Shown: positions 29,293 to 49,859 of the stretch, in pieces
Position numbering within the stretch: the stretch's first letter is position 1
How the letters are laid out: every line of letters starts with the position of its first letter
NCBI RefSeq assembly: GCF_040529335.1
Contig: NZ_CP159534.1
Span: 7,564,001-7,628,000 of the forward strand
DNA length: 64,000 bases
Reading direction: 5' to 3'
Origin: Streptomyces sp. HUAS MG91
GTDB lineage: Bacteria; Actinomycetota; Actinomycetes; Streptomycetales; Streptomycetaceae
Notes under the pieces: generated by a model
What the model was told of the DNA's origin: nothing
What the model saw: the letters and a program-made list of their open reading frames with translations, nothing else
The model's database searches: none
Made by a program: the position numbers and the translations under genes

Positions 29293-29321
29293 GGGTCGTC
29301 ACCCCCGGAGGGTGACGACCC
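29293..29321. promoter_or_regulatory. Palindromic operator, TCACC-N7-GGTGA site 1 (perfect)
   Basis: The 17-bp core occupies 29299-29315, and symmetry extends to perfect 12-bp arms: GGGTCGTCACCC at 29293-29304 and its complement at 29310-29321. It lies 63 bases upstream of the MFS start and 81 upstream of the DUF7144 start, between divergent genes, so an operator is more likely than a terminator. Confidence 0.7.
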
Positions 29322-29395
29322 ACCCCCGGTACCGGGCGCGACACTCGGGGCACAGCGGTGCGTTCCGCACCGGCACCGAACACGGAGGTAGTGTC

Positions 29396-29815
29396 ATGGC
29401 CACCTCGACGGGGTCGCACCCACGCTCCGACGTCAAAATGGCCGCGGCCGGCGGACTGACCGTCTTCGCCGCCGTGCTGCTGTTCATCTCCGGTTCCCTG
29501 GACTTCTGCCGTGGCCTGTCGGCCGTCCTCAGGGACAAGGTCTTCCTGACGACCCCGAACTACGTCTACGAGTGGGACCTGACCGGCTGGGGCTGGACCC
29601 ACATGGCCCTCGGCGCGATCGCGGTGGCCGTGAGCCTCGGCCTCTTCGTCGCGATGAAGTGGGCCCGGGTCATCGGCGTGATCATCGCCGGACTGATGAT
29701 CATCGCCAACTTCCTCTCCATCCCCTACCACCCCCTGTGGTCCCTGACCCTCATCGCGATGGACGGATTCATCATCTGGGCGCTGTGCGTGGTCCGGCGC
29801 GACACCCTCTTCTGA
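29396..29815 (+). CDS. DUF7144-type four-helix membrane protein (first gene of operon)
   Basis: ATG 29396 follows GGAGGTAGTGTC and gives 139 residues. Four hydrophobic helices are visible, with the conserved-looking FLTTPNYVYEWDLTGWGWTH loop and a FLSIPYHPLWSL segment before helix 4. A paralogue with the same plan is encoded at 45530 in the same cluster. I relate both to the family now called DUF7144, whose function is unknown. It heads a tight rightward run (PPK2, P-type ATPase, SulP) controlled from the palindrome at 29293. Confidence 0.8.
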   Translation: MATSTGSHPRSDVKMAAAGGLTVFAAVLLFISGSLDFCRGLSAVLRDKVFLTTPNYVYEWDLTGWGWTHMALGAIAVAVSLGLFVAMKWARVIGVIIAGLMIIANFLSIPYHPLWSLTLIAMDGFIIWALCVVRRDTLF

Positions 29816-29863
29816 ACCCGCCCCGCGGACAACCGAGTCGGGCCTGACCGGCCGAGGTGACGT

Positions 29864-30843
29864 ATGCGCGAAGGACCTGCACGGACGCCGGACGAACAAG
29901 CCGAGCGGATCGCCGAGTTCATCGCTCCGCTGAAGGTGCGGCCCGGCGCCAAGGTGCATCTGGCGGACGACTTCGACCCCGCCTACCGGGCGGGCGTGAA
30001 GAACAAGAAGGCCGGCCGGGAGCTGCTGCGCACCGGCGTCGAGCTCCTGGCCGACTACCAGCGGCGGCTCGCCGCCGACGGCGCGACCGGGGTGCTGCTC
30101 TGCCTCCAGGCGTTGGACGCGGGCGGCAAGGACGGCACCATCCGCCACGTCATGAGCGGGGTGAACCCGCAGGGCGTCCGCGTGGCGGGCTTCAAGGTGC
30201 CCTCCGCGGACGAGCTCGGCCACGACTACCTGTGGCGCTACGCCCGCAACCTGCCCCACCGAGGAGAGATCGGCATCTTCAACCGGTCCCACTACGAGGA
30301 GGTGCTCGTGGTGCGGGTCCACCCCGAACTCCTCAGCCGCCAGCGGCTGCCGGACACCACCACGGGCCGCAAGCTGTGGCGCCGCCGCTACCGGGAGATC
30401 AACGACTGGGAGCGGTATCTGACCGAGAACGGCTTCCGCGTCGTGAAGCTGTTCCTCAACCTGTCCAAGGAGGAGCAGCGCGTCCGCTTCCTCAAACGGA
30501 TCGACCTGCCCGACCACAACTGGAAGTTCTCGGCGGCGGACGTGCGCGAACGCGGCTGCTGGGACGCCTACCAGAGCGCGTTCTCCGAGATGCTCTCCGC
30601 GACCAGCACCACGTGGGCGCCCTGGTACGTGATCCCCGCGGACCGCAAGTGGTTCGCGCGGATCTGCGCTGCCGCCGTCCTCGCCCACACCCTCATCGAC
30701 ATCGATCCGCGCTACCCGGAGATCGACGACAAGAGCCGCGGCGAACTCGCCCGCGAGAAGAAGAAGCTGGAGCGCGAGGCGCCGGCCGGTTCGGCGGCGG
30801 ACCCCTACGCCGCCGGTCACGGGCGGGATCGGAGGCGGAAGCG

Positions 30844-30847
<4 letters not shown>
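29864..30847 (+). CDS. ppk2: Polyphosphate kinase 2 family protein
   Basis: ATG 29864 follows GAGGTGACGT and gives 327 residues. The Walker A loop DAGGKDGT begins at residue 85, the lid-type arginines follow in PHRGEIGIFNRSHYEEVLVV, and GRKLWRRRYREINDWERYL matches the PPK2 core. PPK2 enzymes transfer phosphate between polyphosphate and nucleotides (ADP, AMP or GDP) in the cytoplasm; the subclass cannot be fixed by eye. Its stop overlaps the P-type ATPase start (ATGA), so nucleotide regeneration and ion pumping are translationally coupled, an attractive but unproven link under energy stress. Confidence 0.92.
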
Positions 30848-33537
<2,690 letters not shown>

Positions 33538-33544
33538 GACCCGC

Positions 33545-35254
33545 ATGGGCTGGGTGCCGCCCGGCGTGCGGACGCTGCGCGACTACCGCCGCGACTGGCT
33601 GGCCAAGGACCTGATCGCCGGCATCGTCCTGAGCACCCTCCTGGTCCCGCAGGGCATGGCGTACGCGGAACTCGCCGGACTGCCGGCCATCACCGGCCTG
33701 TACACGTCCGTGCTCTGCCTGCTCGCCTACGCCGTCTTCGGCCCGTCCCGCATCCTCGTCCTCGGACCCGACTCCTCGCTCGGCCCGATGATCGCGGCGA
33801 CGGTGCTGCCCCTGGTGGCGGCCGGCGGCGATCCGGAACGGGCCGTCGCGCTCGCCTCCGTGCTCGCCCTCATGGTCGGCGCGATCATGGTCCTCGCGGC
33901 GGTTGCCAGGCTCGGCTTCGTCGCCGACCTCGTCTCCAAACCCACGATGATCGGCTACATGAACGGCCTGGCCCTGACCATCCTCGTCGGGCAGCTGCCG
34001 AAACTGTTCGGATTCTCCACCGACGCCAAGGGCATCCCCGCCGAACTCGACGCTTTCGTACGGGCGTTGGCGGACGGCAGGACCGTGCCGGCCGCCCTCG
34101 CCGTCGGGATCGGCTGCCTCGCCCTGATCCTGCTGCTGCAACGGCTGCTGCCGAAGGTGCCCGCCGTGCTCGTCATGGTCGTCCTCGCCATCGCGGCGTC
34201 CGTCGTGTTCCACCTCGACGAGCACGGGGTGCACACCGTGGGCCGGCTGCCCGAAGGGCTCCCGCCGTTCACCGTGCCGCACGTGTCCCTCGGCGACCTC
34301 GGGACGCTGTTCGCGGGCGCCCTGGGCATCGCCCTGGTCTCGCTGGCCGACACCATCTCCAACGCCAGCGCCTTCGCCGCCCGCACCGGGCAGGAGGTGC
34401 GCGGCAACGACGAGATGCTCGCCATCGGCGCGGCGAACCTCGCCGCCGGACTCTTCCAGGGGTTTCCCCTGAGCACCAGCGGATCACGCACCGCCGTCGC
34501 CGAACGGGCCGGGGCCCGCACCCAGCTGACCGGCGTCGTGGGCGCCGGGCTGATCCTGCTCATGCTGGTCCTGCTGCCCGGCCTCTTCCGCGACCTGCCG
34601 CAGCCCGCGCTCGCCGCCGTCGTCGTCACCGCGTCGCTCTCGCTGGCCGACCTGCGCGGGACGCGGCGCCTGTGGCGGCAGCGCAAGGCGGAGTTCTGGC
34701 TGGCCATCGCCGCGTTCCTGGGCGTCGCGCTGCTCGGCGTGCTCCCCGGGATCGGGATCGCCGTCGGACTGTCCATCCTCAATGTCTTCCGGCGCGCCTG
34801 GTGGCCGTACAGCACCGAACTCGGACGGGTGCCCGGCCTCGCGGGCTACCACGACGTGCGCTCGCACCCGCGCGCCGCACACCTGCCGGGGCTGGTCGTC
34901 CTGCGCTTCGACGCTCCGCTGTTCTTCGCCAACGCCAAGTCGTTCCGCGACGAGGTGCTGCGCATCGTGCGGCACACCCCGCGGGTCCGCCAGGTGCTGC
35001 TCGCGGCCGAGCCGGTCACCGACGTGGACACCACCGCCGCCGACGTCCTGCTGGAGCTGGACGCCGCGCTCCAGGAGCAGGGCGTCCAGCTGATGTTCGC
35101 GGAGATGAAGGATCCGGTCCGGGACAAGCTCGCGCGGTACGGGCTGACCCGGACCTTCGAACCCGAGCGGTTCTTCCCCACCCTGGAAGAGGCCGTCCTG
35201 GCGTTCCGGTTGCGCAGCGGCGCCCGCTGGACCGTCGCCCAGGACGAGGAGTGA
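33545..35254 (+). CDS. SulP-family anion transporter with C-terminal STAS domain
   Basis: ATG 33545 gives 569 residues. The N-terminal 400 residues are membranous, with the SulP signature STLLVPQGMAYAELAGLPAI and GPDSSLGPMIAATVL. From about 445 a cytoplasmic STAS domain follows (LVVLRFDAPLFFANAKSFRD, EPVTDVDTTAADVLLELD). SulP proteins carry sulfate, bicarbonate or related anions, often with proton or sodium coupling. It is the last gene of the DUF7144-ppk2-ATPase operon. Its stop codon abuts the convergent GH13 stop, the two sharing TGATCA. Confidence 0.92.
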   Translation: MGWVPPGVRTLRDYRRDWLAKDLIAGIVLSTLLVPQGMAYAELAGLPAITGLYTSVLCLLAYAVFGPSRILVLGPDSSLGPMIAATVLPLVAAGGDPERAVALASVLALMVGAIMVLAAVARLGFVADLVSKPTMIGYMNGLALTILVGQLPKLFGFSTDAKGIPAELDAFVRALADGRTVPAALAVGIGCLALILLLQRLLPKVPAVLVMVVLAIAASVVFHLDEHGVHTVGRLPEGLPPFTVPHVSLGDLGTLFAGALGIALVSLADTISNASAFAARTGQEVRGNDEMLAIGAANLAAGLFQGFPLSTSGSRTAVAERAGARTQLTGVVGAGLILLMLVLLPGLFRDLPQPALAAVVVTASLSLADLRGTRRLWRQRKAEFWLAIAAFLGVALLGVLPGIGIAVGLSILNVFRRAWWPYSTELGRVPGLAGYHDVRSHPRAAHLPGLVVLRFDAPLFFANAKSFRDEVLRIVRHTPRVRQVLLAAEPVTDVDTTAADVLLELDAALQEQGVQLMFAEMKDPVRDKLARYGLTRTFEPERFFPTLEEAVLAFRLRSGARWTVAQDEE

Positions 35255-36742
35255 TCAGCTCCCCGGGGAGGCCACCGAGAACACGTGCGTGCCCCAGGGC
35301 GGCAGATCCACGTAGAGGCCGCTGTCCAGGAGCTCCGCCCCCGAGCGCCCGTACCGGTCGTCGGAGAACAGCAGTTCCGTCAACTCCCAGGTGTCCTGGC
35401 CCAGTTCCGGCCAGGGCAGCGGCACGCGGGCCTGTGCCCGATGGTCCGAGAGGTTGACCACCGTCAGGAAGCGGCCCGCGTCGCCGGTCCAGCAGGAGGC
35501 GATCAGGTCGAGCCCCGACGTGTTGTCCGGCCACAGCCGGGACTCCAGGAGCCGCCAGTGCCCGGTCCGCATGCCGCTGCGGTGGACCCGGGCCAGCAGC
35601 CGCTCGTGGAACGCGCGCAGGCCCTGGTCCGGCGGCTCGTCGACGCGGCGGTCCAGGAACACCGGCAGATGGATCCGGCGCCCGGTGAACTGGCCCTCGT
35701 GCCACAGCGTCGCGCCGGGCAGCGTGGCGATCAGGACGGCCGCCGCCCGTTCCTTGTCCGGCGACATGGTCTGCGCGGCCCGCGGCTCGTCATGGTTCTC
35801 CAGGAAGCGGACCAGACGGCGCTGATAGGTCTCGTCGGCCCGCAGGTGGGCGCGGACGGAACCGGCGCTCTCGTGCAGGATCCGGTCGTAGAGGCGCTTG
35901 TCGTAGCAGAAGTCGAACCCCTGCTCCTGAAGGGCCCATTCGCGGTCCCAGTACGCCTCGGCGGCGAACAGCATGCGCGGATGGCGCCCGCGGACCCCGG
36001 CGAGGACCTCCGACCAGAAGTCCTGCTCGGGCGGCGGGCCCACCCGCGCGCCCCAGGTCCGCGCGAAGACCTCGTTCATCATCAGCATCGCCATGTCGCA
36101 GCGCACCCCGTCGCACATCTCGCCGATGGCCGTCAGCACCTCGGTCGTGGCCCGGCGCAGCTCGGGCGCGAACGCGTCGAGCTGGACGACGTCGGGCCAG
36201 GGCGGGAAGAACGGGTCGCGGCCACGCGCGAGCACCGACCGCCCGGTGTCGAGGAACGCCGCCGGGTCCCGGCGCACGTCGTCGGCGTCCCCCCGCACGA
36301 AGTACTCGGGGTGCTCCGCGACCCACGGGCTGTCCGGCGCCACATGGTTCGGCACGTAGTCGAGGAGCAGGCCGACGCCCCGGCGGCCGAGGGCGGCGCG
36401 GGCGGCCGCGAGGCCCTCGGCGCCGCCCAGCGCCTCGTCCACCGCGTAGCGGCGGATGCAGTAGGGCGACCCGGCGATGTCCTCCTCGCGCGTCCCGGGA
36501 ACCGCCGCGTCGAACGACGCGCGCAGCACCGGATCGCCCAGGGCGATGGAGCGCCCCAGCGGGCTGCGCTCCCACACCCCCATCAGCCAGACCACGTCGA
36601 CCCCGGCCGGGGTCAGTTCGTCCCACGCGTCCTTCGGCACCTCGGCGAGCCCCGGGGGCCGGCCGGTGCGCGGCCCCAGCTCCCGCAGCCACACCCGGGT
36701 GTTGACCTCGTGGACGACGGGCTGTGCGGGCATCTCGGTCAT
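35255..36742 (-). CDS. GH13 (alpha-amylase family) glycosidase
   Basis: The 495-residue protein starts at ATG 36742, overlapping the stop of the GH63 gene (ATGA). The four GH13 regions are visible: DYVPNHV (I), GVRCDMAML with the nucleophile aspartate (II), AAEAYWD with the acid-base glutamate (III) and FLENHDE (IV). There is no export signal, so it acts in the cytoplasm on an alpha-glucoside. The barrel is followed by a beta domain ending WGTHVFSVAS. Coupling to a GH63 enzyme suggests joint turnover of a glucosyl osmolyte or storage sugar. Confidence 0.9.
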   Translation of the reverse strand: MTEMPAQPVVHEVNTRVWLRELGPRTGRPPGLAEVPKDAWDELTPAGVDVVWLMGVWERSPLGRSIALGDPVLRASFDAAVPGTREEDIAGSPYCIRRYAVDEALGGAEGLAAARAALGRRGVGLLLDYVPNHVAPDSPWVAEHPEYFVRGDADDVRRDPAAFLDTGRSVLARGRDPFFPPWPDVVQLDAFAPELRRATTEVLTAIGEMCDGVRCDMAMLMMNEVFARTWGARVGPPPEQDFWSEVLAGVRGRHPRMLFAAEAYWDREWALQEQGFDFCYDKRLYDRILHESAGSVRAHLRADETYQRRLVRFLENHDEPRAAQTMSPDKERAAAVLIATLPGATLWHEGQFTGRRIHLPVFLDRRVDEPPDQGLRAFHERLLARVHRSGMRTGHWRLLESRLWPDNTSGLDLIASCWTGDAGRFLTVVNLSDHRAQARVPLPWPELGQDTWELTELLFSDDRYGRSGAELLDSGLYVDLPPWGTHVFSVASPGS

Positions 36743-39438
36743 CGGCCGTGCCTCCTCGGTGCGTCGGGACGGAACGCGTCGGGACCGAGCGTGCCGAAGA
36801 TCTTCATCAGCGGGGCGATCAAACCGGTCCAGCCCGTCTGGTGCGAGGCGCCGATCCCGGCGCCGTTGTCCCCGTGGAAGTACTCGTGGAACAGGATCAG
36901 GTCACGCCAGTGCGGATCGTCGCGGAACTTCGTCTGACCCCCGAAGACGGGCCGCCGCCCGTCCTCGCCGCGCAGGAAGATCCGCGTCAGCCGCGCCGTG
37001 ATCTCCTCGGCGACCTCGAACAGGTTCTTGTGCACGCCCGAGCCCGTCGGGCACTCCACGGTGAACTCGTCGCCGTAGAAGCCGTACAGGTTGATCAGGG
37101 CGCGCACCACGAGCGCGTTCATCGGCAGCCACACCGGGCCGCGCCAGTTCGAGTTGCCGCCGAACATGCCGGTGTCCGACTCGGCCGGCAGATAGCCGAC
37201 CCGGTACTCCTGGCCGCCCGCCCAGAACGTGTACGGGTGCTCGGCGTGATGGCGCGACAGCGCGCGCACCCCGTACGGGCTGAGGAACTCGTCCTCGGAG
37301 AGCAGATGCCCGAGGACGCGGACGAGCTTCTTCTCGTCCAGGATCGACAGCAGCCGCGGCCCGCCCGCCGTGCCGGACTGCGCCGCGCTGAGCGTCACCG
37401 ACAGGGAGGGGTGGCGGGCGGCGAACCGCTGGAGCCGCTCGCCGAGACCCGACAGATGGGCCAGCTGCTCGGGGCGGAACACCGTGGAGGCGCACAGCGG
37501 CAGCAGCCCCACCATCGAGCGCACCTTCAGCCGGACCGCCTGCCCGTCGGGCAGCCGCAGCACGTCGTAGAAGAAGCCGTCCTCCTCGTCCCACAGTTCG
37601 TCGCCGAGGTCGCCGATCCGGTCCATCGAGGCCGCGATCCACAGGTAGTGCTCGACGAACTTGAGGACCAGCTCGTCGTAGGCGTCGTTGTGCTGGGCGA
37701 GTTCGAGCGCGATCTGCAGCATCGACTGGCAGTACAGCGCCATCCACGCGGTGCCGTCGGCCTGCTCCAGCGTGCCGCCGGTGGGCAGCGGGGCGCTGCG
37801 GTCGAAGACGCCGATGTTGTCCAGGCCGAGGAAGCCGCCCTGGAAGACGTTGCGGCCCGACGGATCCTTGCGGTTGACCCACCAGGTGAAGTTCGTCAGC
37901 AGCTTCTGGAAGGTGCGCTCCAGGAACGCGATGTCCGTGCGGCCCGTCGTGCGCTCCTCCATCAGATGCACGAAGTACGCGGCCCAGGCGTGCACCGGCG
38001 GATTCACGTCGCCGAAGTTCCATTCGTACGCGGGGATCTGCCCGTTGGGGTGCAAGTAGCTGTCGCGCAGCAGGAGTTCGAGCTGCTGCTTGGCGAACTC
38101 GACGTCGACGACGGAGAGCGCCACCGTGTGGAACGCCAGGTCCCAGGCGGCGAACCACGGGTACTCCCACTTGTCCGGCATCGAGATGATGTCGTCGTTG
38201 ATCATGTGGAACCACTCGCGGTTGCGCACCCCGGGCCGCGGCAGACTCCACGGCGACAGATGGTGCTCGGCCAGCCAGGTCTCCAGGTCGAAGGCGTAGT
38301 ACTGCTTCGACCAGAGCATCCCGGCGAGCGCCTGGCGCAGCACCCGCGCCTCGTCCTCGCTCGCCCGGGGCGGGGTCAGCTCCCGGTAGAAGTCGTCCGC
38401 CTCGGAGATGCGCTGCCTGAACACCGAGTCGAAGCCGCGGGCCAGCGACAGCTGCCCGCCCGCGGGGCCGAGGCGCAGCCGCAGCGTCTCGGATCCGCCC
38501 GGGGGGACCACCACCGTGTAGTGCGCCGCCGCCTTGGTGCCCTCCCGGGCGGGATTCACGGCCGTCCCCTCGCCCTCCACGACGTACCGGTTGATGCCGT
38601 CCTTCACGTAGGGGGAGGCGTTCGGGGTCTGGAACAGGCGCTCGGTGTTCGTCTCGTTCTCCGTGAACAGCAGCCGGGGCGCCCCCGCGCACCGCAGGTC
38701 GTAGGAGCCGAGTCCGGGATGGTCGGCGCGCACGGTGGAGACCTGCCGGGGGCCTTCGGCCGCGCGCAGCCGCGGCGCGGGATCCGGTGCGCGCCCGTCG
38801 CCCCAGGACCAGGTGTTGCGCAGCCACAGCGTCGGCAGCACGTGCAGCGTCGCCTCGTCGGGGCCCCGGTTCTCCACCGTGATCCGCATCAGGATGTCGT
38901 CGTGGTCCGCCTTCGCGTACTCCACCGTCACGTCGAAGTAGCGGTTCTCGTCGAAGATCCCCGTGTCCATCAGCTCGTACTCGAACTCCTGCCGGCCGCG
39001 GGCGCGGTTGACCGACAGGAGCATGTCGTAGGGATAGGCGGCCTGCGGGTACTTGTACAGGTAGCGCAGGTAGGAGTGGCTGGGCGTGCTGTCGAGGTAG
39101 AAGTAGTACTCCTTGACGTCCTCGCCGTGGTTGCCCTCGCCGTTGGTGAGGCCGAAGGCGCGCTCCTTCAGGATCGGGTCCTGCCCGTTCCACAGGGCGA
39201 TCGCCAGACACAGCCGCTGCTTGTCGTCGCAGATGCCGCCGAGCCCGTCCTCGCCCCAGCGGTAGGCACGGGAACGCGCGTGGTCGTGCGGGAAGTACGA
39301 CCACGCGTCACCGCCCGGGCTGTAGTCCTCGCGGACCGTGCCCCACTGCCGCTCGCTCAGGTACGGCCCCCACAGCCGCGCCCGCGCGTTCCCGGTGGCC
39401 GTCGGCCCCACGCCCGCGCCCTGCTCCTGTTTCTTCAT
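36739..39438 (-). CDS. GH63 / MGH1-like glucosidase
   Basis: ATG 39438 gives 899 residues. The N-terminal 350 residues form a beta-rich supersandwich. The C-terminal (alpha/alpha)6 part has WYPWFAAWD-like EYPWFAAWDLAFHTVALSVV, and near its end GGNSNWRGPVWLPMN, the hallmark of GH63 and mannosyl- or glucosylglycerate hydrolases. No export signal is seen. The likely role is cytoplasmic hydrolysis of an alpha-glucoside such as glucosylglycerate or another compatible solute; inference only. It shares an operon with the GH13 gene, and a regulon palindrome lies 64 bases upstream of its start, inside the 3' end of the neighbouring gene. Confidence 0.87.
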   Translation of the reverse strand: MKKQEQGAGVGPTATGNARARLWGPYLSERQWGTVREDYSPGGDAWSYFPHDHARSRAYRWGEDGLGGICDDKQRLCLAIALWNGQDPILKERAFGLTNGEGNHGEDVKEYYFYLDSTPSHSYLRYLYKYPQAAYPYDMLLSVNRARGRQEFEYELMDTGIFDENRYFDVTVEYAKADHDDILMRITVENRGPDEATLHVLPTLWLRNTWSWGDGRAPDPAPRLRAAEGPRQVSTVRADHPGLGSYDLRCAGAPRLLFTENETNTERLFQTPNASPYVKDGINRYVVEGEGTAVNPAREGTKAAAHYTVVVPPGGSETLRLRLGPAGGQLSLARGFDSVFRQRISEADDFYRELTPPRASEDEARVLRQALAGMLWSKQYYAFDLETWLAEHHLSPWSLPRPGVRNREWFHMINDDIISMPDKWEYPWFAAWDLAFHTVALSVVDVEFAKQQLELLLRDSYLHPNGQIPAYEWNFGDVNPPVHAWAAYFVHLMEERTTGRTDIAFLERTFQKLLTNFTWWVNRKDPSGRNVFQGGFLGLDNIGVFDRSAPLPTGGTLEQADGTAWMALYCQSMLQIALELAQHNDAYDELVLKFVEHYLWIAASMDRIGDLGDELWDEEDGFFYDVLRLPDGQAVRLKVRSMVGLLPLCASTVFRPEQLAHLSGLGERLQRFAARHPSLSVTLSAAQSGTAGGPRLLSILDEKKLVRVLGHLLSEDEFLSPYGVRALSRHHAEHPYTFWAGGQEYRVGYLPAESDTGMFGGNSNWRGPVWLPMNALVVRALINLYGFYGDEFTVECPTGSGVHKNLFEVAEEITARLTRIFLRGEDGRRPVFGGQTKFRDDPHWRDLILFHEYFHGDNGAGIGASHQTGWTGLIAPLMKIFGTLGPDAFRPDAPRRHGR

Positions 39439-41016: not shown

Positions 41017-41571
41017 ATGGCCGGGATCGGACCGGTGCAGCTCCTGACGGTCGAGTTCGGGCCGGAAGCCAAGTTCGAGGGCCGGATCATGGAAGAGCTG
41101 TCGATCCTTGAGGCGAACGGTCAGATCCGCGTCCTCGACATGCTCTTCGTCAGCAAGGAACCCGGTGGCGACCTGTTCACCATGGACTTCCAGGCAGAGG
41201 GCATGGGGGAGACCGTCGCCGCGCTGCTGGGCATCTCCGGCGAGAAGGTCAAGGCGGCCCAGAAGGAGTACCCGAGCCTCGCCGAGGGCAACGCCTTCGG
41301 CCTGAGCCTGGGCGAGATCAGGGAGATGGCCGACGCCCTCGACCCGGGCACGGCCGCGGCGTTCGTCCTCCTGGAGCACGTCTGGGCGAAGTACCTGCGC
41401 ACAGCGATCCGCGACGCGGGCGGCGTGCCCGTCGCGGAAGGCTTCCTCACCGAGGAGGCACTCGAACCCGTCACCGTCCAGGTCACCGCGGCGGCAGAAC
41501 GGCTCGGTGACCCCGTCGCCCCGAACGGCGGCGGGAACCGGACGGCCAAACACCACCCCAGGAGGCCCTGA
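41017..41571 (+). CDS. DUF6325-like protein
   Basis: ATG 41017 follows GGAAGGGAG and gives 184 residues. It opens GPVQLLTVEFGPEAKFEGRI and has FVLLEHVWAKYLRTAIRDAG in the second half, the pattern of small soluble actinobacterial proteins grouped, to my memory, as DUF6325 and related to DUF1269. No catalytic motif is visible. The stop shares one base with the DUF1269 start (TGATG), so the two are translationally coupled and may form a complex. A regulon site lies upstream. Confidence 0.75.
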   Translation: MAGIGPVQLLTVEFGPEAKFEGRIMEELSILEANGQIRVLDMLFVSKEPGGDLFTMDFQAEGMGETVAALLGISGEKVKAAQKEYPSLAEGNAFGLSLGEIREMADALDPGTAAAFVLLEHVWAKYLRTAIRDAGGVPVAEGFLTEEALEPVTVQVTAAAERLGDPVAPNGGGNRTAKHHPRRP

Positions 41572-42056
41572 TGGCCGATCTCGTCGTGCTCGGATTCGCG
41601 GACAAGGAGAAGGCGGAGTCGGTGCTCCGCCTGTCCAAGGAGCTGTCCCGCCAGGAGCTCCTCGACCTGGAGGACGCCGCCCTGGCCTGGCGCACCATGG
41701 ACGGCAAGATCCACACGCAGCAGACGTACAGCACCACGGCGGCCGGCGCGGCCGGCGGCGCCCTGTGGGGCTCGCTGTTCGGACTGCTCTTCCTGATGCC
41801 CGTGTTCGGCGCGGCGGTGGGGGCCGCCACCGGCGCCGTGGCCGGCAAGCTCACCGACATCGGCATCAACGACGCGTTCGTCAAGGAGATCGCGGCCACC
41901 CTCGAACCCGGCCACGCGGCCGTCTTCGCCCTCGTCCGCCGCTCCACGCCCGACCGCGTCCGCGACGCGCTGCGCCCCTTCAAGCCCAGCGTGCTCCGCA
42001 CCTCCCTCACCAAGGAGCGAGAGGAGGAGCTGGTCAGCGCCCTGCAAGGGTCGTGA
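41571..42056 (+). CDS. DUF1269-family protein
   Basis: ATG 41571 is coupled to the preceding stop. The 161-residue protein begins MADLVVLGFADKEKAESVL, has a glycine/alanine-rich hydrophobic middle (GGALWGSLFGLLFLMPVFGA) that could enter the membrane, and ends with LVRRSTPDRVRDALRPF. This order is typical of DUF1269 proteins, found in many stress- and envelope-related clusters without a defined function. It is the last gene of the operon begun at 41017. Confidence 0.85.
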   Translation: MADLVVLGFADKEKAESVLRLSKELSRQELLDLEDAALAWRTMDGKIHTQQTYSTTAAGAAGGALWGSLFGLLFLMPVFGAAVGAATGAVAGKLTDIGINDAFVKEIAATLEPGHAAVFALVRRSTPDRVRDALRPFKPSVLRTSLTKEREEELVSALQGS

Positions 42057-42207: not shown

Positions 42208-44565
42208 ATGTCCCAGCGGCTCTGCCCCGACAGCGAGGGAGCCGACCACGAGGCATCCCGCACGACGCCCGCGCTGCCCGCCTGGATCGTGGCGCGTCCC
42301 CGGCTGACTGACCGGCTCGCCCGCGCGGTACGCGGCCGGCTGACGGTCGTCGTCGGACCGGTGGGTGCGGGCAAGACGGCCCTCGCCCTGGAGTGGGCGC
42401 ACACCCGGCGCCCCCCGGGCCCGCTGGCCTGGGTGACCTGCGACGGCCGTGCCGAACAGCCCGCCGTGTTCTGGCCCCGGGTCACCTCGGCCCTGCGCGA
42501 CGCGGGCGTCCTGGTGCCGGACGCCGTCGCCACCGGCGAGGGCCCGCTGCTCGTCGCCGCGCTCGCCGCCGAACTCAACCGGCGCACCGAACCGGTGGTG
42601 CTGCTCCTCGACGACTTCCAGCCCGCACCCAACTCACCGATCGCGGACGGCGTCAGCAGCCTGCTGCGGCACACCTCCGGCGTGCTGCGCCTGGTCGTCC
42701 TGGCCCGCCGTGACCCGCCGCTGCACCTGCGCCGCGACCGGCTCGCCAGCGACCTGACCGAACTGCGCACCGCCGACCTCGCCTTCGACGAACGGGAGAC
42801 CGCCGCCCTGCTCGCGCAGCACGGCATCGACGTGCCCAAACAGACCGTGAGCGTGCTGTGCCGGCGCACCGACGGCTGGGCCGCGGGCATCCGGCTCGCC
42901 GCGATGTCCATGGAGAAGCTGGAGCGGCACGGCGAACCCGAGCGGTTCGTCGACCGGTTCGCCGGGGACGACGAGGCGGTCGCCAGCTACCTCGTCGAAG
43001 AGGTGCTCGACCTGCAACCGGCCGCGATGCGCCGCCTCCTGCTCACCACCAGCGTCCTGGACCGGGTCAACGCCGAACTGGCCGGCGCGCTCTGCGGCGA
43101 CGACATCGGCGGGCACTTCGCCGACCTCGTCCGCGAGAACTCCTTCCTGCACCCGCTCGGCCACGGCTGGTACCGCTGCCACCAGATGTTCGCCGACGTG
43201 CTGCGGATGTGCCTGCGCCACGAGACACCGGGCCTGGTCGTCCCACTGCACCGCCGCGCCGCGGCCTGGCTCGGCGCCCACGGCCGGCTCGCCGAGGCCG
43301 TCGGGCATCTGCTCGCCGCCGACGATCGCGACCTGGCGGCGGAACTGATTGTGCGTCACCTCGCGATCGGCCAGGTTCTCGGCCTGTCCAGGTCCCCGCT
43401 GCCGGACGGCCTCACGCGCGGCGGCCCGCAGGAGGAGGGGAGCGGCGTCCGGCCGGAGCCGGTCCTGCTCGCCGCGGCGGTCGCCCGGGTCCGCGGCGAC
43501 GACCAGGCGTGCGGCCGCCACCTCGCGCTCGCGCAGCGGCTCCTGGCCGAACCCCCGCACGACGGCCCGGAGGGCGACGGCGACGACCCCGACGGCCAGG
43601 GACAGGACGACCGGGACCGGGCCGACCGGCGGGCCCGCTGCCGGCTGGCGCACGCCGTGATCCGCATGGAACGGCTGCGCGCCGGCGCCCCCGAGCAGGC
43701 GTACGCCGCCGCCCTGGAGGTGGAGGAGATCGGGCCGCTGCTGCCGCACGCCGCGCTCGCCCAGCACCCCGAGATCCCCGCGCTCACCCTCGCGGTGCGC
43801 GGCGCCTACGAGATCAGGGCCGGCCACCTCAAGGCCGCGGAGACCTCCCTCACCGGCGCGCTGAAGGCGGCGGGCGCCGCGGGCAACGGAGCGCTGCGCC
43901 GGGACTGCCTCGTCGAACTCGCGCTCCTGGAGGCGGTACGCGGCCGGTTCCGGGCCGCCGACGAACTCGCCGCCCACGCCACCCAGCCGCCGCTGCCCAG
44001 CTGGTGCGCCGCCGAACGCTCACAGGCGGCCCTGCACTTGGTGCGCGCCTGGGTCGAGCTGGCCCGCGGCGAGCCCGGCCGGGCCCGGCACGAACTCGCC
44101 CGCGCCGACGCCGTGCTGCGGACCTCCCCGGACGTGTTCCTCGCCGAGCTGCGGGCCCTCGCCGGGGGCGTCGCCGCGGCGGTGGAGCGCGGCGGCCCCT
44201 TCGGCTGCGGCCCGAAGGCCTTGGACGGACTGGTCCGCGCCGCCCGGCTGCCGGTGACCGTGCTGCGCACCCTGACCCCGGCCTGCGCCTTCGTGCTCGA
44301 CGCGGCGGCCCGGGGCGGCCGCGCCCCCGGCGCGGCCGTACCGGACCGTGCGGGCGGACGGCCCGCCCGCACGGAGCAGTTGAGCCCGCGCGAGCGCGAT
44401 GTGCTGAACCGTCTCGCCCAGATGATGACCACCGAGGAGATCGCCGCGGAGCTGTATCTCTCGGTGAACACGGTCAAGACGCACCTCAAGAGCGTCTACC
44501 GCAAGCTCGCCGTGACGCGGCGCTCGGCCGCGGTGCGGCGGGCACGCGAACTCCAGATCCTGTGA
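42208..44565 (+). CDS. MalT-like LuxR-family ATP-dependent regulator
   Basis: ATG 42208 lies behind GAGCGAGG; a GTG nine bases upstream is possible. The 785-residue protein has Walker A GPVGAGKTALALEW (about 50-63), a Walker B-like VVLLLDDFQPAP, and MalT-type segments such as RRTDGWAAGIRLAAMSMEKL and HQMFADVLRMCL. The C-terminal LuxR helix-turn-helix reads LSPRERDVLNRLAQMMTTEE and STNTVKTHLKSVYRKL-like SVNTVKTHLKSVYRKL. ATP- and ligand-dependent activation is the family mode. Its central place in the cluster and the palindrome in front of it make it a prime candidate for the cluster regulator. Confidence 0.9.
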   Translation: MSQRLCPDSEGADHEASRTTPALPAWIVARPRLTDRLARAVRGRLTVVVGPVGAGKTALALEWAHTRRPPGPLAWVTCDGRAEQPAVFWPRVTSALRDAGVLVPDAVATGEGPLLVAALAAELNRRTEPVVLLLDDFQPAPNSPIADGVSSLLRHTSGVLRLVVLARRDPPLHLRRDRLASDLTELRTADLAFDERETAALLAQHGIDVPKQTVSVLCRRTDGWAAGIRLAAMSMEKLERHGEPERFVDRFAGDDEAVASYLVEEVLDLQPAAMRRLLLTTSVLDRVNAELAGALCGDDIGGHFADLVRENSFLHPLGHGWYRCHQMFADVLRMCLRHETPGLVVPLHRRAAAWLGAHGRLAEAVGHLLAADDRDLAAELIVRHLAIGQVLGLSRSPLPDGLTRGGPQEEGSGVRPEPVLLAAAVARVRGDDQACGRHLALAQRLLAEPPHDGPEGDGDDPDGQGQDDRDRADRRARCRLAHAVIRMERLRAGAPEQAYAAALEVEEIGPLLPHAALAQHPEIPALTLAVRGAYEIRAGHLKAAETSLTGALKAAGAAGNGALRRDCLVELALLEAVRGRFRAADELAAHATQPPLPSWCAAERSQAALHLVRAWVELARGEPGRARHELARADAVLRTSPDVFLAELRALAGGVAAAVERGGPFGCGPKALDGLVRAARLPVTVLRTLTPACAFVLDAAARGGRAPGAAVPDRAGGRPARTEQLSPRERDVLNRLAQMMTTEEIAAELYLSVNTVKTHLKSVYRKLAVTRRSAAVRRARELQIL

Positions 44566-44589: not shown

Positions 44590-45039
44590 TCACGCTCCGC
44601 CCGGCCCCCTCTCCCGAGACCCCGGTACGGGCCCGACGAGGCCCAGCTCACGGCCGCACCGAACGGCCTCGGCCCGCGAACTCGCGCCCAGCTTCCGGTA
44701 CACGGCGCGGACATGGGTCTTGACCGTGTTGTGTGACACGTACAGCAGGTCGGCGATCTGCCGCAGCGACACCTCCTCCTCCTGAAGCAGTGCGAGCACC
44801 GCCAACTGGCGTTCGGTCAGCGGCTGGACGGGCGTCGCCCCCGGCCGCTGGGAGTTCTCGCGCGGGACCGCGGCCAGCACGGCGGCCGCCTCGTCGACGA
44901 GGACCACGGCGCTGCGTGGATCGGCCACGGCGCCGGCGACTCTGACCAGCGTGCCCGCGACCCACACCAGGCAGGCCGTCAGGGTCGGGCCCGGCGCGGT
45001 GCCGGATCTCGACTGCCGGTCGTACAGGACTGCGGGCAT
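44590..45039 (-). CDS. Small LuxR-type helix-turn-helix regulator
   Basis: ATG 45039 lies eight bases after GGAGG and gives 149 residues. Residues 1-75 contain no receiver signature: an alanine/valine-rich stretch around LVWVAGTLVRVAGAVADPRS. The C-terminal half is a LuxR/NarL-type DNA-binding domain (LTERQLAVLALLQEEEVSLR, SHNTVKTHVRAVYRKLGASS). It may respond to a partner or to an unidentified ligand. It converges on the MalT-like regulator, and a long nested palindrome (45041-45085) covers its ribosome site and leader. It is the second candidate regulator of the cluster. Confidence 0.85.
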   Translation of the reverse strand: MPAVLYDRQSRSGTAPGPTLTACLVWVAGTLVRVAGAVADPRSAVVLVDEAAAVLAAVPRENSQRPGATPVQPLTERQLAVLALLQEEEVSLRQIADLLYVSHNTVKTHVRAVYRKLGASSRAEAVRCGRELGLVGPVPGSRERGPGGA

Positions 45040-45164: not shown

Positions 45165-45374
45165 TCACGAACAGGCGTCCGGCAACCGGCGCACCTCCAG
45201 CAGTTCCAGACCGAGGGCCTGGATGCGGTCGAGGATCCCGTAGAGGGCGGCCTGGTCGAGTCCGGAACCCACCAGGACCGTCTCCGACGGGTGCAGCACG
45301 ACGGTCAGTTCACCGAACGCCGAACGGAAGGCGTCACCGATCCTGCCGCGCACCCGGATCTCGAAGTCGCCCAT
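45165..45374 (-). CDS. Small conserved-looking protein, 69 residues
   Basis: ATG 45374 follows GGAGGTGTCGGC. The product starts MGDFEIRVRGRIGDAFRSAF, has alternating strands and one helix (DQAALYGILDRIQALGLELL), and a short C-terminal tail. It looks like a compact alpha/beta domain without cysteine pairs or catalytic motifs. I do not know a function. It is divergent from the second DUF7144 gene across regulon site 4, so it likely responds to the same signal. Confidence 0.72.
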   Translation of the reverse strand: MGDFEIRVRGRIGDAFRSAFGELTVVLHPSETVLVGSGLDQAALYGILDRIQALGLELLEVRRLPDACS

Positions 45375-45437: not shown

Positions 45438-45454
45438 TCACCTCGTGCGGGTGA
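45438..45454. promoter_or_regulatory. TCACC-N7-GGTGA site 4 (perfect), between divergent genes
   Basis: TCACC (45438-45442) and GGTGA (45450-45454) flank TCGTGCG. The site lies 64 bases upstream of the 69-residue gene and 76 upstream of the DUF7144 gene at 45530. Confidence 0.7.
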
Positions 45455-45529: not shown

Positions 45530-45994
45530 ATGGCCGGGCAGATCTCATCGGGCCCCACCCCGGGCTCCGGCACACCCCCGCAGGAGCCCCACGTCAGTGT
45601 GATGGCGCTCGGCGGAGTCGTCTTCGCCGCCTGCGTCCTGGGCATCCTCGGCGGGTTCCATCTGATCTCGGGGCTCTCCGAGGTCCTGAGCAGCAACTAC
45701 TACCAGGCGCAGCACGACTACGCCTTCGACTTCGACACCAACGGCCGCGGCTGGGTCGAGATGATCACCGGCGCGGTGATGCTCGGCGCGGCCTTCGCCC
45801 TGTTCAAGGGCCGCACCTGGGCCCGCGTGGTCGGTATCGTCATCGCCGGTCTGAGCGCGCTGGAGCACTTCTTCTTCACCCCGTACCACCCGGTGTGGTC
45901 GGCGATCATCATCGTGCTCGACGTGCTGGTGATCTGGTCGCTGACGGCGTACGGACGCCGCGAGGCGCGCAAGGTCTACGAGGCCGGGTCCTAG
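45530..45994 (+). CDS. DUF7144-type membrane protein (second copy)
   Basis: ATG 45530 follows GAAGAGGAAG and gives 154 residues with four hydrophobic helices. The loop YAFDFDTNGRGWVEMITGAV and the FFFTPYHPVWSAIIIVLDVL segment correspond to the same places in the paralogue at 29396. The N-terminus is Gly/Pro-rich and cytoplasmic. The function is unknown. It is monocistronic and controlled from site 4, in parallel with the first copy at site 1. Confidence 0.82.
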   Translation: MAGQISSGPTPGSGTPPQEPHVSVMALGGVVFAACVLGILGGFHLISGLSEVLSSNYYQAQHDYAFDFDTNGRGWVEMITGAVMLGAAFALFKGRTWARVVGIVIAGLSALEHFFFTPYHPVWSAIIIVLDVLVIWSLTAYGRREARKVYEAGS

Positions 45995-46025: not shown

Positions 46026-47339
46026 TCAGCTCCGCCGGGTCAGGCCCAGTTCGGCGATCGTGCGCCAGTCGAGGGCCGGCCGTTCCCGGTAGCCGCCCGG
46101 CCGGTTCCTAGGCACCATCACGCGGAGCGCGCCCGCCCGGATCTCGCAGCGCACGGGCACGGGCAGCCGCACCGCCTCGCCGTCGAGGCCGACCGGCAGC
46201 TCCGGCCGGTCGGCGTCGACGGTCACCGTGGTCGCGCGCGCCCGGGTCAGCCCCGTCGCCCGGCCGCGCCGCAGCAGCCCCGCGGCCTGGGCGGCGCTGG
46301 TCACGCGGACGCCGACACAGCCGAGGACGCCGCCGTCGACGCGGGGGCGCCGGCCGAGCCCGGCGATGTCCCGCTCGCCGTACGGGTTGTTGCTGACCAG
46401 CAGCGCCTGCGGATCCTCGAAGGTGTGCCCGCCCGCGTGCGCGGTCAGCCGGGCGCCGCGGTGGCCCACGAGCAGATCGGGCAGCAGCTCCAGCGTCGTA
46501 CGGGTCTTGCCGTCCCGGTAGGCGGGGCTCTGCACCACCTCCGCGTACGCGCCGAACGAGACGTTGTTGACGAACGGCCGCCCGGCAGCCCGGCCCAGAT
46601 CCACCCGGAGTTCGACCCCGTCGCGCAGCGCGTCGAGGGCGGTGGCCGGGTCGTCGCGGTCCAGGCCGAGGTCGAGGGCGAAGTGGTTGCGGGTCCCCGC
46701 GGGAACGACGAGGAACGGCAGACCGAGGTCGGCGGCGACCTCGGCGACCAGGGCCTGGGTGCCGTCACCGCCGGCGACGCCGAGCAGATCGGCGCCGCGC
46801 GCCGCGCAGCCGCGGGCCAGGGCCGCGACGTCCGTCTCGCCGTCCGTGTCCAGCAGCACCACCTCGGCACCGAGTTCGCCCGCCCGCTCGCGCAGCCGGA
46901 ACCGCTCCACCTTCCCGCCTCCGGAGCGGGGATTCATGATGAGCACGGGATGCCGGACCTGCGGCGCGGGCCGCTCCCGCGGCGCGGCCGGTGCCGCCCG
47001 CCCGGTCAGCGCCGCCCGCCCGGCGCCCGTGGCCGCCAGCCACAGCGCGCCCGACACCAGCACCACCCAGAGCAGACCGGCCCGCACGTACGCCACGAGC
47101 ACCCAGACCGGCGCGGCGAGCGCGAGCAGCACGGCGAGGTACCGCAGCACCCCCCGGCGGCTGAGGACCCACCACACGGCCGCGAGCGTGAGCACCGCGC
47201 CCGCGAGCCCGACCACGAGCAGCGCGAAGGTGCGCAGCCCGGCGAACACGCCGAGCACCACGAGCGCCGCCGCGGCGGCGAGCAGACAGAGGCGGGCCAG
47301 CCGGCGCCGCCGCCGAAGTCCTCGGATCTCCGGTTCCAT
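46026..47339 (-). CDS. Diacylglycerol-kinase-like lipid kinase with N-terminal membrane helices
   Basis: ATG 47339 gives 437 residues; longer starts would cross regulon site 5. Three to four hydrophobic segments fill residues 18-120. A DAGK catalytic domain follows: VLIMNPRSGGGKVERF, the nucleotide loop GVAGGDGTQALVAEVA, LVVPAGTRNHFALDLGLD and NNVSFGAYAEV. The family phosphorylates diacylglycerol or related lipids (or sphingoid-like bases) with ATP. Membrane helices on the same chain suit a lipid substrate. It is divergent from the DUF2252 gene across two regulon-type sites. Confidence 0.88.
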   Translation of the reverse strand: MEPEIRGLRRRRRLARLCLLAAAAALVVLGVFAGLRTFALLVVGLAGAVLTLAAVWWVLSRRGVLRYLAVLLALAAPVWVLVAYVRAGLLWVVLVSGALWLAATGAGRAALTGRAAPAAPRERPAPQVRHPVLIMNPRSGGGKVERFRLRERAGELGAEVVLLDTDGETDVAALARGCAARGADLLGVAGGDGTQALVAEVAADLGLPFLVVPAGTRNHFALDLGLDRDDPATALDALRDGVELRVDLGRAAGRPFVNNVSFGAYAEVVQSPAYRDGKTRTTLELLPDLLVGHRGARLTAHAGGHTFEDPQALLVSNNPYGERDIAGLGRRPRVDGGVLGCVGVRVTSAAQAAGLLRRGRATGLTRARATTVTVDADRPELPVGLDGEAVRLPVPVRCEIRAGALRVMVPRNRPGGYRERPALDWRTIAELGLTRRS

Positions 47340-47374: not shown

Positions 47375-47422
47375 TCACCCCCGGCAGGCGACTCGGCGGC
47401 GGACCTCACACCGCCGGGGTGA
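47375..47422. promoter_or_regulatory. Pair of TCACC-N7-GGTGA-like sites (5 and 6), one mismatch each
   Basis: TCACC-N7-GGCGA lies at 47375-47391, 36 bases upstream of the lipid-kinase start. TCACA-N7-GGTGA lies at 47406-47422, 78 upstream of the DUF2252 start. The two are 31 bp apart, about three helical turns, on the same DNA face, one for each divergent gene. Confidence 0.6.
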
Positions 47423-47499: not shown

Positions 47500-48981
47500 A
47501 TGGACGCGACCGAGACGACGAGCACGCACGGACCGGCCACTCCCGCCGAGCGGGCGGCCCGGGGCAGGAGCGCCCGCTCCCGCGTCCCGCGCCCGGCGCA
47601 CGGCGAGTTCGCGCCGCCCGCCGACCGCCCCGACCCGGTCGACGTCCTCGAACAGCAGTCGGCCGACCGGCTCCCCGAGCTGGTGCCGCTGCGCTACGGA
47701 CGTATGACGCAGTCGCCGTTCCGCTTCTTCCGCGGCGCCGCCGCCCTCATGGCGGCCGACCTCGCGGCCACCCCCACCACAGGAATGCGGGCCCAACTGT
47801 GCGGTGACGCGCACCTGTTGAACTTCCGGCTGCTCGCCTCGCCGGAGCGGCGCCTGATGTTCGACATCAACGACTTCGACGAGACGCTGCCGGGCCCGTG
47901 GGAGTGGGACGTCAAACGGCTCGCGGCCAGCCTGGTCATCGCCGGGCGCGGCAACGGCTTCGGCGCGGCACAGCGCCGCCGCGTGGTGCGGGCCACCGTG
48001 GCCGCCTACCGCCGTGCGATGGCGGAGTTCGCCGCCCTGCGCACGCTCGACGTCTGGTACGCGCGGATCGACGCCGACGAGCTGTACGCGAGGCTCTCCG
48101 CCCGTATCGACCCGCGCGCCCGCCGCCGGATGTCCGCCGCGCTCACCAAGGCCCGTACCCGGGACCACCTCCAGGCGCTCGACAAGCTGGCCCGGGTGGT
48201 CGACGGCCAGCTGCGCATCGTCCCCGACCCGCCGCTGATCACCCCGCTCGACATGCTGCTGCCCGGCGTGGAGCGCAAGCACCTGGAGGACCAGCTGCGC
48301 GGACTCGTCGCCCGTTACGCCCGGTCGCTGCCCGCCGACCGGCGGGCTCTGCTGGCCCAGTACCGGGTCGTCGACATGGCGCGCAAGGTCGTCGGCGTGG
48401 GCAGTGTCGGCACCCGCTGCTGGGTGATCCTGCTGCTCGGCCGGGACGCCCGCGACCCGCTGCTGCTCCAGGCGAAGGAGGCGCAGACGTCGGTCCTCGC
48501 CCCGGGCGCCGGCGCGTCGGACCTCGTCAACCAGGGCGAGCGCGTCGTCGCGGGCCAGCGGCTCATGCAGGCCGCCGGGGACATGTTCCTCGGCTGGGAG
48601 CGGGCGGAGGGCTTCGACGGACGGCAACGCGACTTCTACATCCGGCAGTTGCGGGACTGGAAGGCGATCCCGCAGGCCGACCTGATGAGCCCGGACGTCA
48701 TGCTCCTCTTCGGCCGCACCTGCGGCACCACGCTGGCCCGCGCCCACGCGCGCTCCGGTGACCGCATCGCGATCGCCGCCTACCTGGGCCGCTCCGACGC
48801 CTTCGACCGGGCCGTCGCCCGGTTCGCGGAGGCGTACGCGGACCAGAACGAGCGCGACTTCGCGGCGCTCACGGCCGCGGTGAAGGACGGCCGGGTACGG
48901 GCCGAGAAGGAGGAGCCCGACAAGCCGGTCCGGACCGGCAAACCGGCGAAATCCAAGGGCTCCAGGGCCCCGGGGCATTAG
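47500..48981 (+). CDS. DUF2252 family protein
   Basis: ATG 47500 follows GAGGGGAGC; GTG 47452 is a weaker alternative. The 493-residue protein has YGRMTQSPFRFFRGAAALMA, LCGDAHLLNFRLLASPERRL and FDINDFDETLPGPWEWDVKR, the diagnostic blocks of DUF2252. The GDAHLLNF and DINDFDE pieces recall the catalytic and metal sites of aminoglycoside-kinase-like folds, so a phosphotransfer activity is possible but unproven. The tail is lysine-rich. The stop overlaps the convergent YihY/BrkB gene by four bases. Confidence 0.9.
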   Translation: MDATETTSTHGPATPAERAARGRSARSRVPRPAHGEFAPPADRPDPVDVLEQQSADRLPELVPLRYGRMTQSPFRFFRGAAALMAADLAATPTTGMRAQLCGDAHLLNFRLLASPERRLMFDINDFDETLPGPWEWDVKRLAASLVIAGRGNGFGAAQRRRVVRATVAAYRRAMAEFAALRTLDVWYARIDADELYARLSARIDPRARRRMSAALTKARTRDHLQALDKLARVVDGQLRIVPDPPLITPLDMLLPGVERKHLEDQLRGLVARYARSLPADRRALLAQYRVVDMARKVVGVGSVGTRCWVILLLGRDARDPLLLQAKEAQTSVLAPGAGASDLVNQGERVVAGQRLMQAAGDMFLGWERAEGFDGRQRDFYIRQLRDWKAIPQADLMSPDVMLLFGRTCGTTLARAHARSGDRIAIAAYLGRSDAFDRAVARFAEAYADQNERDFAALTAAVKDGRVRAEKEEPDKPVRTGKPAKSKGSRAPGH

Positions 48982-49775
48982 GGATCGGCCGGGCCCGTCC
49001 ACCTCCGTACCCACTCCTCCTGGGCCAGCACCCGCCCGATCGCCACACCGGCCACCACCACGGTGAAGAACACGATCAGCCAGGACAGCAGGGTGAACAC
49101 CGAGCCGAGCGGCCCGTACCGCTCCTCGCTCACCCGCAGCGCCCGCGGCAGCCACAGCCCGGAGGCGACGCAGAAGGCGACCACCCCGCCGCCGGCCAGC
49201 ACCGCGCCCGGCAGCAGCGGCAGCCACGGCACCCGCCCCGCGAGGAGCAGGTGCTGCGTCCACCACCACATCAGAACCGACTCCACCACCTGGAGCGCCA
49301 CCCCGAGCACGGTCCCGGCGCCGAACGCCCGGTGCAGCGACCCCTGGAGCACCAGCACCGCGATCCACACCGCGAGCCACAGCGCCCAGCGCCACGCCAC
49401 GTACCGCACGCCGGACCGGGGGAGCTCCCAGGCACGCTCGCACATCCGTTGCAGGGCCCGGGTGAAGGAGGTGGCCGACAGCAGGGCCACCAGCAGGCCC
49501 GCGGCGCCCCAGTTGTCGAACGAGCCGTCGAAGCCGCGGGTCAGCCCGTCGGTGTCCGCCACCACGGGCCCGCTCGAGCCGATCAGCGTGTGCAGCGACC
49601 GCCGTATCTCGTGCCGCACGGGCGGCGGGCAGAGCGAGGCGACGGCGATCAGCATCGGCAGCGCGGCGAGGAACGCCTGGGCGGCGAGCCGTGTCGACAT
49701 GTCGAGAACGGTGACGCGGACGAGCTGCCGCCCGACGCGGGCCGCGAGCGGCCGGGCGGCTTCGGCGATCGCCAT
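48978..49775 (-). CDS. YihY/BrkB-like membrane protein
   Basis: ATG 49775 follows GGAGAGG and gives 265 residues with about six hydrophobic segments. LDMSTRLAAQAFLAALPMLI at the N-terminus and YGPLGSVFTLLSWLIVFFTV near the C-terminus match the BrkB/YihY family, whose members are plasma-membrane proteins of unclear, perhaps transport, function. A weak copy of the regulon palindrome (CCACC-N7-GGCGA, 49843-49859) lies 68 bases upstream, at the same distance as in the stronger cases. Confidence 0.82.
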   Translation of the reverse strand: MAIAEAARPLAARVGRQLVRVTVLDMSTRLAAQAFLAALPMLIAVASLCPPPVRHEIRRSLHTLIGSSGPVVADTDGLTRGFDGSFDNWGAAGLLVALLSATSFTRALQRMCERAWELPRSGVRYVAWRWALWLAVWIAVLVLQGSLHRAFGAGTVLGVALQVVESVLMWWWTQHLLLAGRVPWLPLLPGAVLAGGGVVAFCVASGLWLPRALRVSEERYGPLGSVFTLLSWLIVFFTVVVAGVAIGRVLAQEEWVRRWTGPADP

Positions 49776-49842
49776 GACGGTGGCCTCTCCTGGCAGGGCA
49801 CGCTCCTGCCGGACACCGTGCGCCGGGCGGCGCCGCTCCGCG

Positions 49843-49859
49843 CCACCCGGCACGGGCGA
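49843..49859 (-). promoter_or_regulatory. Weak TCACC-N7-GGTGA-like site (two mismatches)
   Basis: CCACC-N7-GGCGA matches eight of ten fixed positions and lies 68 bases upstream of the YihY/BrkB start, the distance seen for the strong sites. By sequence alone it would not be called. Confidence 0.3.

Follow-up and report, generated by a model that had tools for sequence, protein, structure and literature searches.

The window analyzed here, a 64-kb stretch of the Streptomyces sp. HUAS MG91 chromosome (positions 7564001 to 7628000 of contig 1), holds an island of genes in which a 17-bp palindrome, TCACC-N7-GGTGA (extended form, TCACCC-N5-GGGTGA), marks about nine promoters within one chromosomal region, together with the gene for a LuxR-type regulator of the LAL class (42208..44565, + strand). 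Perfect copies of the palindrome occur between an MFS transporter gene (- strand) and the DUF7144a gene (+ strand) (operator 1, 29299..29315), in the promoter of a GH63-like gene (operator 2, 39502..39518, - strand), between the genes at 39459-40883 (- strand) and 41017-41571 (+ strand) (operator 3, 40931..40947), and between a 69-amino-acid (69-aa) protein gene (- strand) and the DUF7144b gene (+ strand) (operator 4, 45438..45454). Copies with one mismatch precede a diacylglycerol-kinase-like (DAGK) gene (operator 5, 47375..47391, - strand) and a DUF2252 gene (operator 6, 47406..47422, + strand), and a copy with two mismatches precedes a YihY/BrkB gene (operator 7, 49843..49859, - strand). 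An earlier note, made from the sequence of this window, had listed the same seven sites as the mark of a shared regulon, and every coordinate and mismatch class that it gave holds, as does its count of five sites lying between divergent genes; of the others, the site at 39502, which precedes the GH63 gene, falls within the 3'-terminal part of 39459-40883, and that at 49843 lies between two codirectional genes. The site-to-start distances that it put at 36 to 81 bases are right at the lower end (36 bp for DAGK) but extend to 111 bp, for the MFS gene. The DUF7144b gene lies 76 bp from the site at 45438 if it starts at the ATG at 45530, vs 145 bp for the start at 45599 chosen by the gene caller.

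Perfect copies are far rarer by chance than their number in the window, as the earlier note had estimated: dinucleotide shuffles give an expectation of 0.09 against the 4 observed, and none of 100 shuffles reaches 4. The whole genome (8.6 Mb) contains 13 perfect copies, compared with 4 for a reversed-pattern control, and 4 of the 13 fall within 16 kb. Among the nine perfect copies outside the window, five read TCACCG... on the + strand, and only the one at 7452128 has the C...G extension; this unlinked operator, about 140 kb from the island, is accompanied by an A-N3-T element (see below) and precedes an alpha/beta hydrolase gene (L139:9929). Matches with up to two mismatches show no excess in the window (25 vs 36 by chance), so loose copies are by themselves uninformative and the weak sites need other support; those at 47375, 47406, and 49843 are upheld because each has A-N3-T at a fixed offset. 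A further one-mismatch copy at 26708, absent from the earlier note, lacks A-N3-T at that offset and was not counted, and a palindrome at 42106, which contains the half-sites without the N7 spacer, was dropped on the same ground. The latter (42106-42117, TCACCCGGGTGA) carries both half-sites about 90 bp 5' of the LAL start.

The spacing and placement of the palindrome are conserved across the genus, for which we used a set of 61 genomes (G000-G060) and called the genes in fetched stretches with a simple in-house script. DUF7144 (PF23636) has 96 matches in this set and is present in 55 of the 61 genomes; leaving aside the two matches in the window and two others (in G030 and G031) that are weak or partial, we obtained a first locus set of 92 stretches around DUF7144 genes (1.73 Mb). 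Within it, TCACC-Nn-GGTGA occurs 58 times at n = 7, vs 1 to 18 times at each other spacer from 0 to 15, and TCACCC-N5-GGGTGA occurs 32 times, vs 0 to 3 times at other spacings. A second locus set, picked by the LAL protein and independent of DUF7144, comprised 38 named loci, mostly from Streptomyces, of which 22 (Streptomyces and one Kitasatospora, with long matches) were used for the spacer spectrum and 25 for the upstream test; it yields 48 copies at n = 7 against 0 to 7 at other spacers, and 26 copies of the extended form against 0 or 1. In the first set plus the window, 61 of the 62 N7 sites (one of them counted twice, in the overlapping stretches L104 and L126) have a called gene starting no more than 250 bp downstream, and none is solely intragenic, whereas only 19 of 120 sites with other spacers, pooled, are upstream, with random positions at 21 to 22%. 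The second set gives 53/53 upstream at n = 7 against 7/33 for other spacers, and all 54 N7 sites in L166-L203 are upstream of genes.

Orthologous promoters tell the same story. An alignment of the GH63 promoter from five genomes has a mean column identity of 73% and shows no variation in the operator arms or at the A-N3-T bases. Orthologous sites exist for YihY in G059, G048, and NBC_01016, for DAGK in G059 (offset 41) and NBC_01016, and for DUF2252 in G059 and NBC_01016, and a scan of G048 found neither a DAGK nor a DUF2252 site; with the exception of these two promoters in G048, the orthologous promoters of the window's clade retain their sites, the weak ones included. The motif is thus neither equally common in coding DNA nor unconserved at orthologous promoters, the two outcomes that the earlier note had named as telling against its proposal, and the shared regulon that it posited is borne out by upstream placement and by this conservation. 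Judged from these comparisons, the motif is real and nonrandom, and it is an operator.

When sites are oriented to the gene that they face, an A at position 40 and a T at position 44 are far overrepresented. Among 208 site-gene pairs from 59 LAL loci (perfect N7 sites plus sites departing from TCACCCN5GGGTGA by no more than one base, with near-identical and overlapping loci retained), A-N3-T occurs at offset 40 in 84 and at offset 41 in 49, and at other offsets from 25 to 61 in 0 to 6, such that in 133 of the 208 pairs a -10-like A-N3-T follows the site at a distance of 23 or 24 bp. Counted by family, offset 40 is found in 17/34 and offset 41 in 14/34, with 0 to 5 at each of ten other offsets, and in 112 pairs facing no gene the counts are 7 at offset 40 and 1 at offset 41. 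The commonest bases at the element, (C/G)-A-C-G-C-T-G, make a weak -10. Seven of the window's 15 site-directions have A-N3-T at offset 40 (P = 1e-8; P = 6e-10 for 7/11, which excludes 42106, the STAS direction of 26708, and the two crossed directions at 47375/47406), namely those towards MFS (composite of operator and A-N3-T at 29271-29315), GH63, 39459-40883, DUF7144b, DAGK (47375), DUF2252 (47406), and YihY (49843). The offset is 42 towards DUF7144a and 39 towards the 69-aa gene, and no A-N3-T stands at the offset in either direction of 26708, at 42106, or in the two crossed directions at 47375/47406; the tandem sites there therefore appear to serve the divergent DAGK and DUF2252 genes one each. 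Operator 3 has the element at the fixed offset solely towards 39459-40883. If A-N3-T is a -10 element, transcription would start some 6 to 7 nucleotides farther on and the operator center would lie near -43, a class II position.

The regulator at 42208..44565 has 785 aa (788 aa if it starts at 42199) and combines an AAA domain with a C-terminal LuxR-type helix-turn-helix (HTH) (GerE, 2.2e-15, positions 727-782 of 788). Its Walker A motif lies near the N terminus, with G50, G53, G55, and K56 invariant in 20 proteins, and its nucleotide-binding domain is homologous to that of MalT (profile of 20 relatives against 8bob, E = 5.7e-63, positions 25-385). A MalT-like TPR region falls below the cutoff in L050 and was not reported for the window protein; as far as testable, the predicted domain makeup is that of a LAL/MalT-type protein.

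Sites and LAL genes occur together. In the first set plus the window, all 21 stretches with a LAL gene have a site, vs 9 of 72 without one, and sites are present in 51 of the 59 LAL loci; in 9 of 53 cases, a site lies upstream of the LAL gene itself. Composites (operator, 23 to 24 bp, and A-N3-T) number 81 in the 28 genomes of the genus set in which a LAL gene was found (E of 1e-30) and 8 in the 33 in which none was; at least one is present in 26/28 of the former but in 7/33 of the latter, and the reversed control occurs once in the 61 genomes. A site precedes 18 of the first set's 22 SHOCT genes; by a hand tally, 17 of these 18 lie in LAL-positive genomes, whereas 3 of the 4 without a site lie in LAL-negative ones (P = 0.01). 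In G246 (S. coelicolor group, recognized by a published primer site for SCO7173), there is only one LAL match to the family profile (locus 1494088-1496733), and all three composites lie within 7 kb downstream of it; SCO7173 (908 aa) in the same genome is a distinct LAL whose HTH differs. Going by size and approximate location, the S. coelicolor orthologue may be SCO6334. The LAL gene also occurs in S. coeruleorubidus ATCC 13740 (L175). In LAL-positive genomes, composites unlinked to the LAL locus precede SHOCT (G003), DAGK (G033), and both SHOCT and DUF2252 genes (G058) (L234, L235, and L237), which argues for action in trans.

We therefore propose, at a probability of about 0.75, that the MalT-like LAL protein encoded at 42208-44565 has TCACCC-N5-GGGTGA as its operator, and we take this protein to be an activator of the MalT/LAL type that controls a regulon of its own in the island. 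The proposal draws on site conservation, position, spacing, and co-occurrence, from which we infer LAL binding, activation, the start site, the signal, and the purpose. Of the two LuxR proteins that the earlier note had put forward as regulators, co-occurrence favors this one. In response to some signal, the ATP-binding LAL would bind, as a paired HTH, to the palindrome, whose center would lie some 43 bp upstream of the transcription start, beside the -35 region, and would activate promoters with a weak -10 (xA-N3-T) in class II fashion; a divergent gene pair would be served by a single operator or, as with DAGK/DUF2252, by one per gene. The targets would be mostly membrane proteins (DUF7144, MFS, and YihY and, in relatives, SHOCT/PLDc_N, DUF308/HdeD-like, ion channel, and Na+/H+ exchanger proteins), alongside DAGK, DUF2252, PPK2, and glycoside hydrolases, and the regulon probably acts in homeostasis of the envelope or the membrane. 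Published accounts of the LAL class come mainly from antibiotic clusters, going by the excerpted text of PMC3282765; if the proposal is true, a stand-alone LAL gains an operator, a promoter architecture, and a Streptomyces-wide regulon, and DUF7144, the 65-aa protein (see below), SHOCT/PLDc_N, and DUF2252 are placed in one response.

Several observations weigh against this proposal. The window LAL is itself preceded by no good site, although it may be cotranscribed from operator 3, and no A-N3-T stands at the fixed offset from that operator towards the 184-aa protein gene at 41017. Eight of the 59 LAL loci have no site (L170, L172, L153, L186, L151, L154, L184, and L191). A tree of 51 LALs, built by a quick method with LALs of up to 600 aa or outside the family excluded (no member from L151, L154, L155, L169, L184, L188, L190, or L191), puts two of the siteless loci, L170 and L172, in the main clade and two, L153 and L186, outside it, and it does not separate LALs with sites from those without (4 without, 4 changes). 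G011 and G018 have a LAL but no composite, G008 counts as LAL-negative yet has an operator and -10 before a SHOCT gene, and the fourth siteless SHOCT gene is in G057, which has a partial LAL match. The LAL-positive count of 28 comes from 16 candidates scored per genome, and some LAL-negative calls may be misses. Most of the fetched unlinked composites are not before a known regulon family (in LAL-positive genomes, L236, L238, L239, L241-L244, L249, L252, L156, and L139; in L238, where 65-aa and SHOCT genes are adjacent, the first site precedes a DUF2254 gene). Of the eight composites in LAL-negative genomes, L245-L248 and L253 have one each, with no regulon family, that of G008 faces the SHOCT gene, and those of G032 and the second of G055 fall outside this tally. 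The loci are related, so the P values are too small, and the co-occurrence could have arisen because the island and the regulator are inherited together.

BldM is a response regulator with a LuxR/NarL-type HTH, and it, or another regulator of the NarL type, might bind the sites, with the LAL gene a passenger or a target. The BldM group I box of Streptomyces, TCACcCgnncGgGTGA, is likewise palindromic and has identical half-sites, TCACCC/GGGTGA, in the portion of PMC4125116 covered, but it measures 16 bp (N6 between TCACC and GGTGA) instead of 17 bp, and that spacing is not the one seen here: the 1.73 Mb of DUF7144 loci contain 6 copies with spacer 6, none of which precedes a gene, the LAL loci contain none, and the window has no match to the 16-bp box below two mismatches. 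The frequency of the N6 box is also similar in genomes without and with a LAL gene (4.82 and 5.36 per genome), whereas that of the N7 box differs (1.15 and 2.54). BldM targets are developmental in the same excerpt (PMC4125116), and boxes of its type occur irrespective of the LAL gene; TCACCCN4GGGTGA is found in 60 of the 61 genomes, at up to 12 copies per genome. We consider a BldM-type reader unlikely. An unlinked factor reading the sites is compatible with the data in that LAL binding is only predicted. Such a factor would, however, need to be absent or idle in LAL-negative genomes; moreover, the LAL gene aside, only the 65-aa, DUF7144, and SHOCT families are found in the majority of the 59 LAL loci, and none of these showed a DNA-binding domain in Pfam. 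We hold this reading to be quite improbable.

The second regulator nominated by the earlier note, the short LuxR protein (44590..45039, - strand; only an HTH found), sits in the island and has a similar HTH. It occurs in only 8 of 59 LAL loci, compared with 51 of 59 for the sites, and so it cannot be the general regulator and was ruled out as such; that it reads the sites here, alone or with the LAL, is very unlikely. It is barely credible that the palindromes are functionless, repeat-like, or driven by composition: the high GC content and the lack of an excess of loose matches would fit, but the spacer, upstream, and A-N3-T statistics contradict it. Given the contrast in spacer with BldM, whether regulators share a half-site can be tested directly. 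A broader scheme, which we advance only tentatively and hold to be doubtful, is that BldM and the MalT-like LAL, LuxR-type activators from two different classes, share a half-site within one and the same cell, with their regulons separated by one spacer base, and that the constant 65-aa ferredoxin-fold partner is part of the LAL signal input.

Among known systems, the quorum-sensing LuxR box likewise lies near -42.5 and serves class II activation, as proposed here, but its sequence and regulator class differ. MalT binds direct-repeat boxes, whereas the palindrome here is single, and the OsdR/DevR regulator has an HTH of the same class as the island regulator. MalT/LAL proteins are likewise large, with an N-terminal ATPase carrying Walker A and a C-terminal LuxR HTH (8bob; PMC3282765, in part). 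The heptameric direct repeats of SARP-LAL regulators, named in the title of PMC5930380, also differ from a single palindrome, and no antibiotic cluster was noticed in the island, in contrast to LAL regulators elsewhere. The OsdR/DevR dormancy regulon resembles the island in being a stress-type gene set with many palindrome copies around its regulator, but its box, AGGGCCGATCGGCCCT, differs from the island operator (PMC5069765, excerpted text); in the window it has 4 matches with three mismatches (1.3 expected; 2 of 100 shuffles reach 4), none of them at an island promoter at up to three mismatches. The earlier note knew no described operator of this kind. Its half-site turns out to be that of BldM group I (PMC4125116, in part), whereas the 17-bp form was not found described: no such operator or comparable LAL regulon appeared in the literature covered, parts of PMC8914203, PMC13118837, and PMC5537264 included, an absence that is provisional as subscription papers lie mostly outside that coverage.

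The regulon families recur across the 59 LAL loci to different extents, and most are membrane proteins. The commonest LAL partner is the 65-aa protein, present in 48 loci (a site at 37/48 genes), followed by DUF7144 in 40 (16/42), SHOCT/PLDc_N in 34 (35/37), MFS in 22 (14/26), DUF2252 in 19 (12/19), DUF308/HdeD-like proteins in 18 (13/18), DAGK in 17 (6/18), the ion channel in 12 (8/12), YihY in 9 (3/9), and GH63 in 5 (5/5, at 64 to 68 bp). The 65-aa family, represented in the window by the 69-aa protein (45165..45374, - strand) and elsewhere by L050:14505-14702, has no Pfam match; it has 503 homologues, and the organisms named among the best 120 are Streptomyces. Its structural model is beta-alpha-beta-beta-alpha-beta, ferredoxin-like (pLDDT, 84.6), and finds generic ferredoxin-like matches only (best E, 0.014).

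In order along the window, the genes are the MFS transporter gene (27845..29188, - strand; PF07690) and, divergently, DUF7144a (29396..29815, + strand; PF23636), which is probably cotranscribed with PPK2 (29864..30847, + strand; PF03976). Genes for a P-type cation ATPase (30844..33537, + strand) and a SulP sulfate-type transporter with STAS (33545..35254, + strand) come next. The GH63/MGH1-like hydrolase gene (36739..39438, - strand) has downstream of it an alpha-amylase-like gene (35255..36742, - strand; PF00128, 26.3 bits over a short stretch). Neither the 474-aa protein (39459..40883, - strand) nor the 184-aa protein (41017..41571, + strand) has a Pfam match; the earlier note had labeled the latter DUF6325. 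A DUF1269 gene (41571..42056, + strand; PF06897) precedes the LAL gene, and beyond the short LuxR and 69-aa genes lie DUF7144b (45530..45994, + strand; PF23636), DAGK (46026..47339, - strand; PF00781), DUF2252 (47500..48981, + strand; PF10009), and YihY/BrkB (48978..49775, - strand; PF03631). The "stress" role that the earlier note gave the island would follow from the gene families only.

Three other features of the window were observed. Just 5' of the short LuxR start, a ten-base perfect inverted repeat, GCCCCTCACC / GGTGAGGGGC, spans 45040-45086, with a spacing unlike that of the operator. Two OsdR-like boxes (25756-25794), each with three mismatches to the OsdR/DevR box, lie 23 bp apart in a stretch (25506-26186) that has no called gene. 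A second large LuxR regulator (22747-25506; 919 aa, AAA_16 plus GerE) lies outside the LAL family, and a homologue of it adjoins the same island in G059 (L104:3250-6012).

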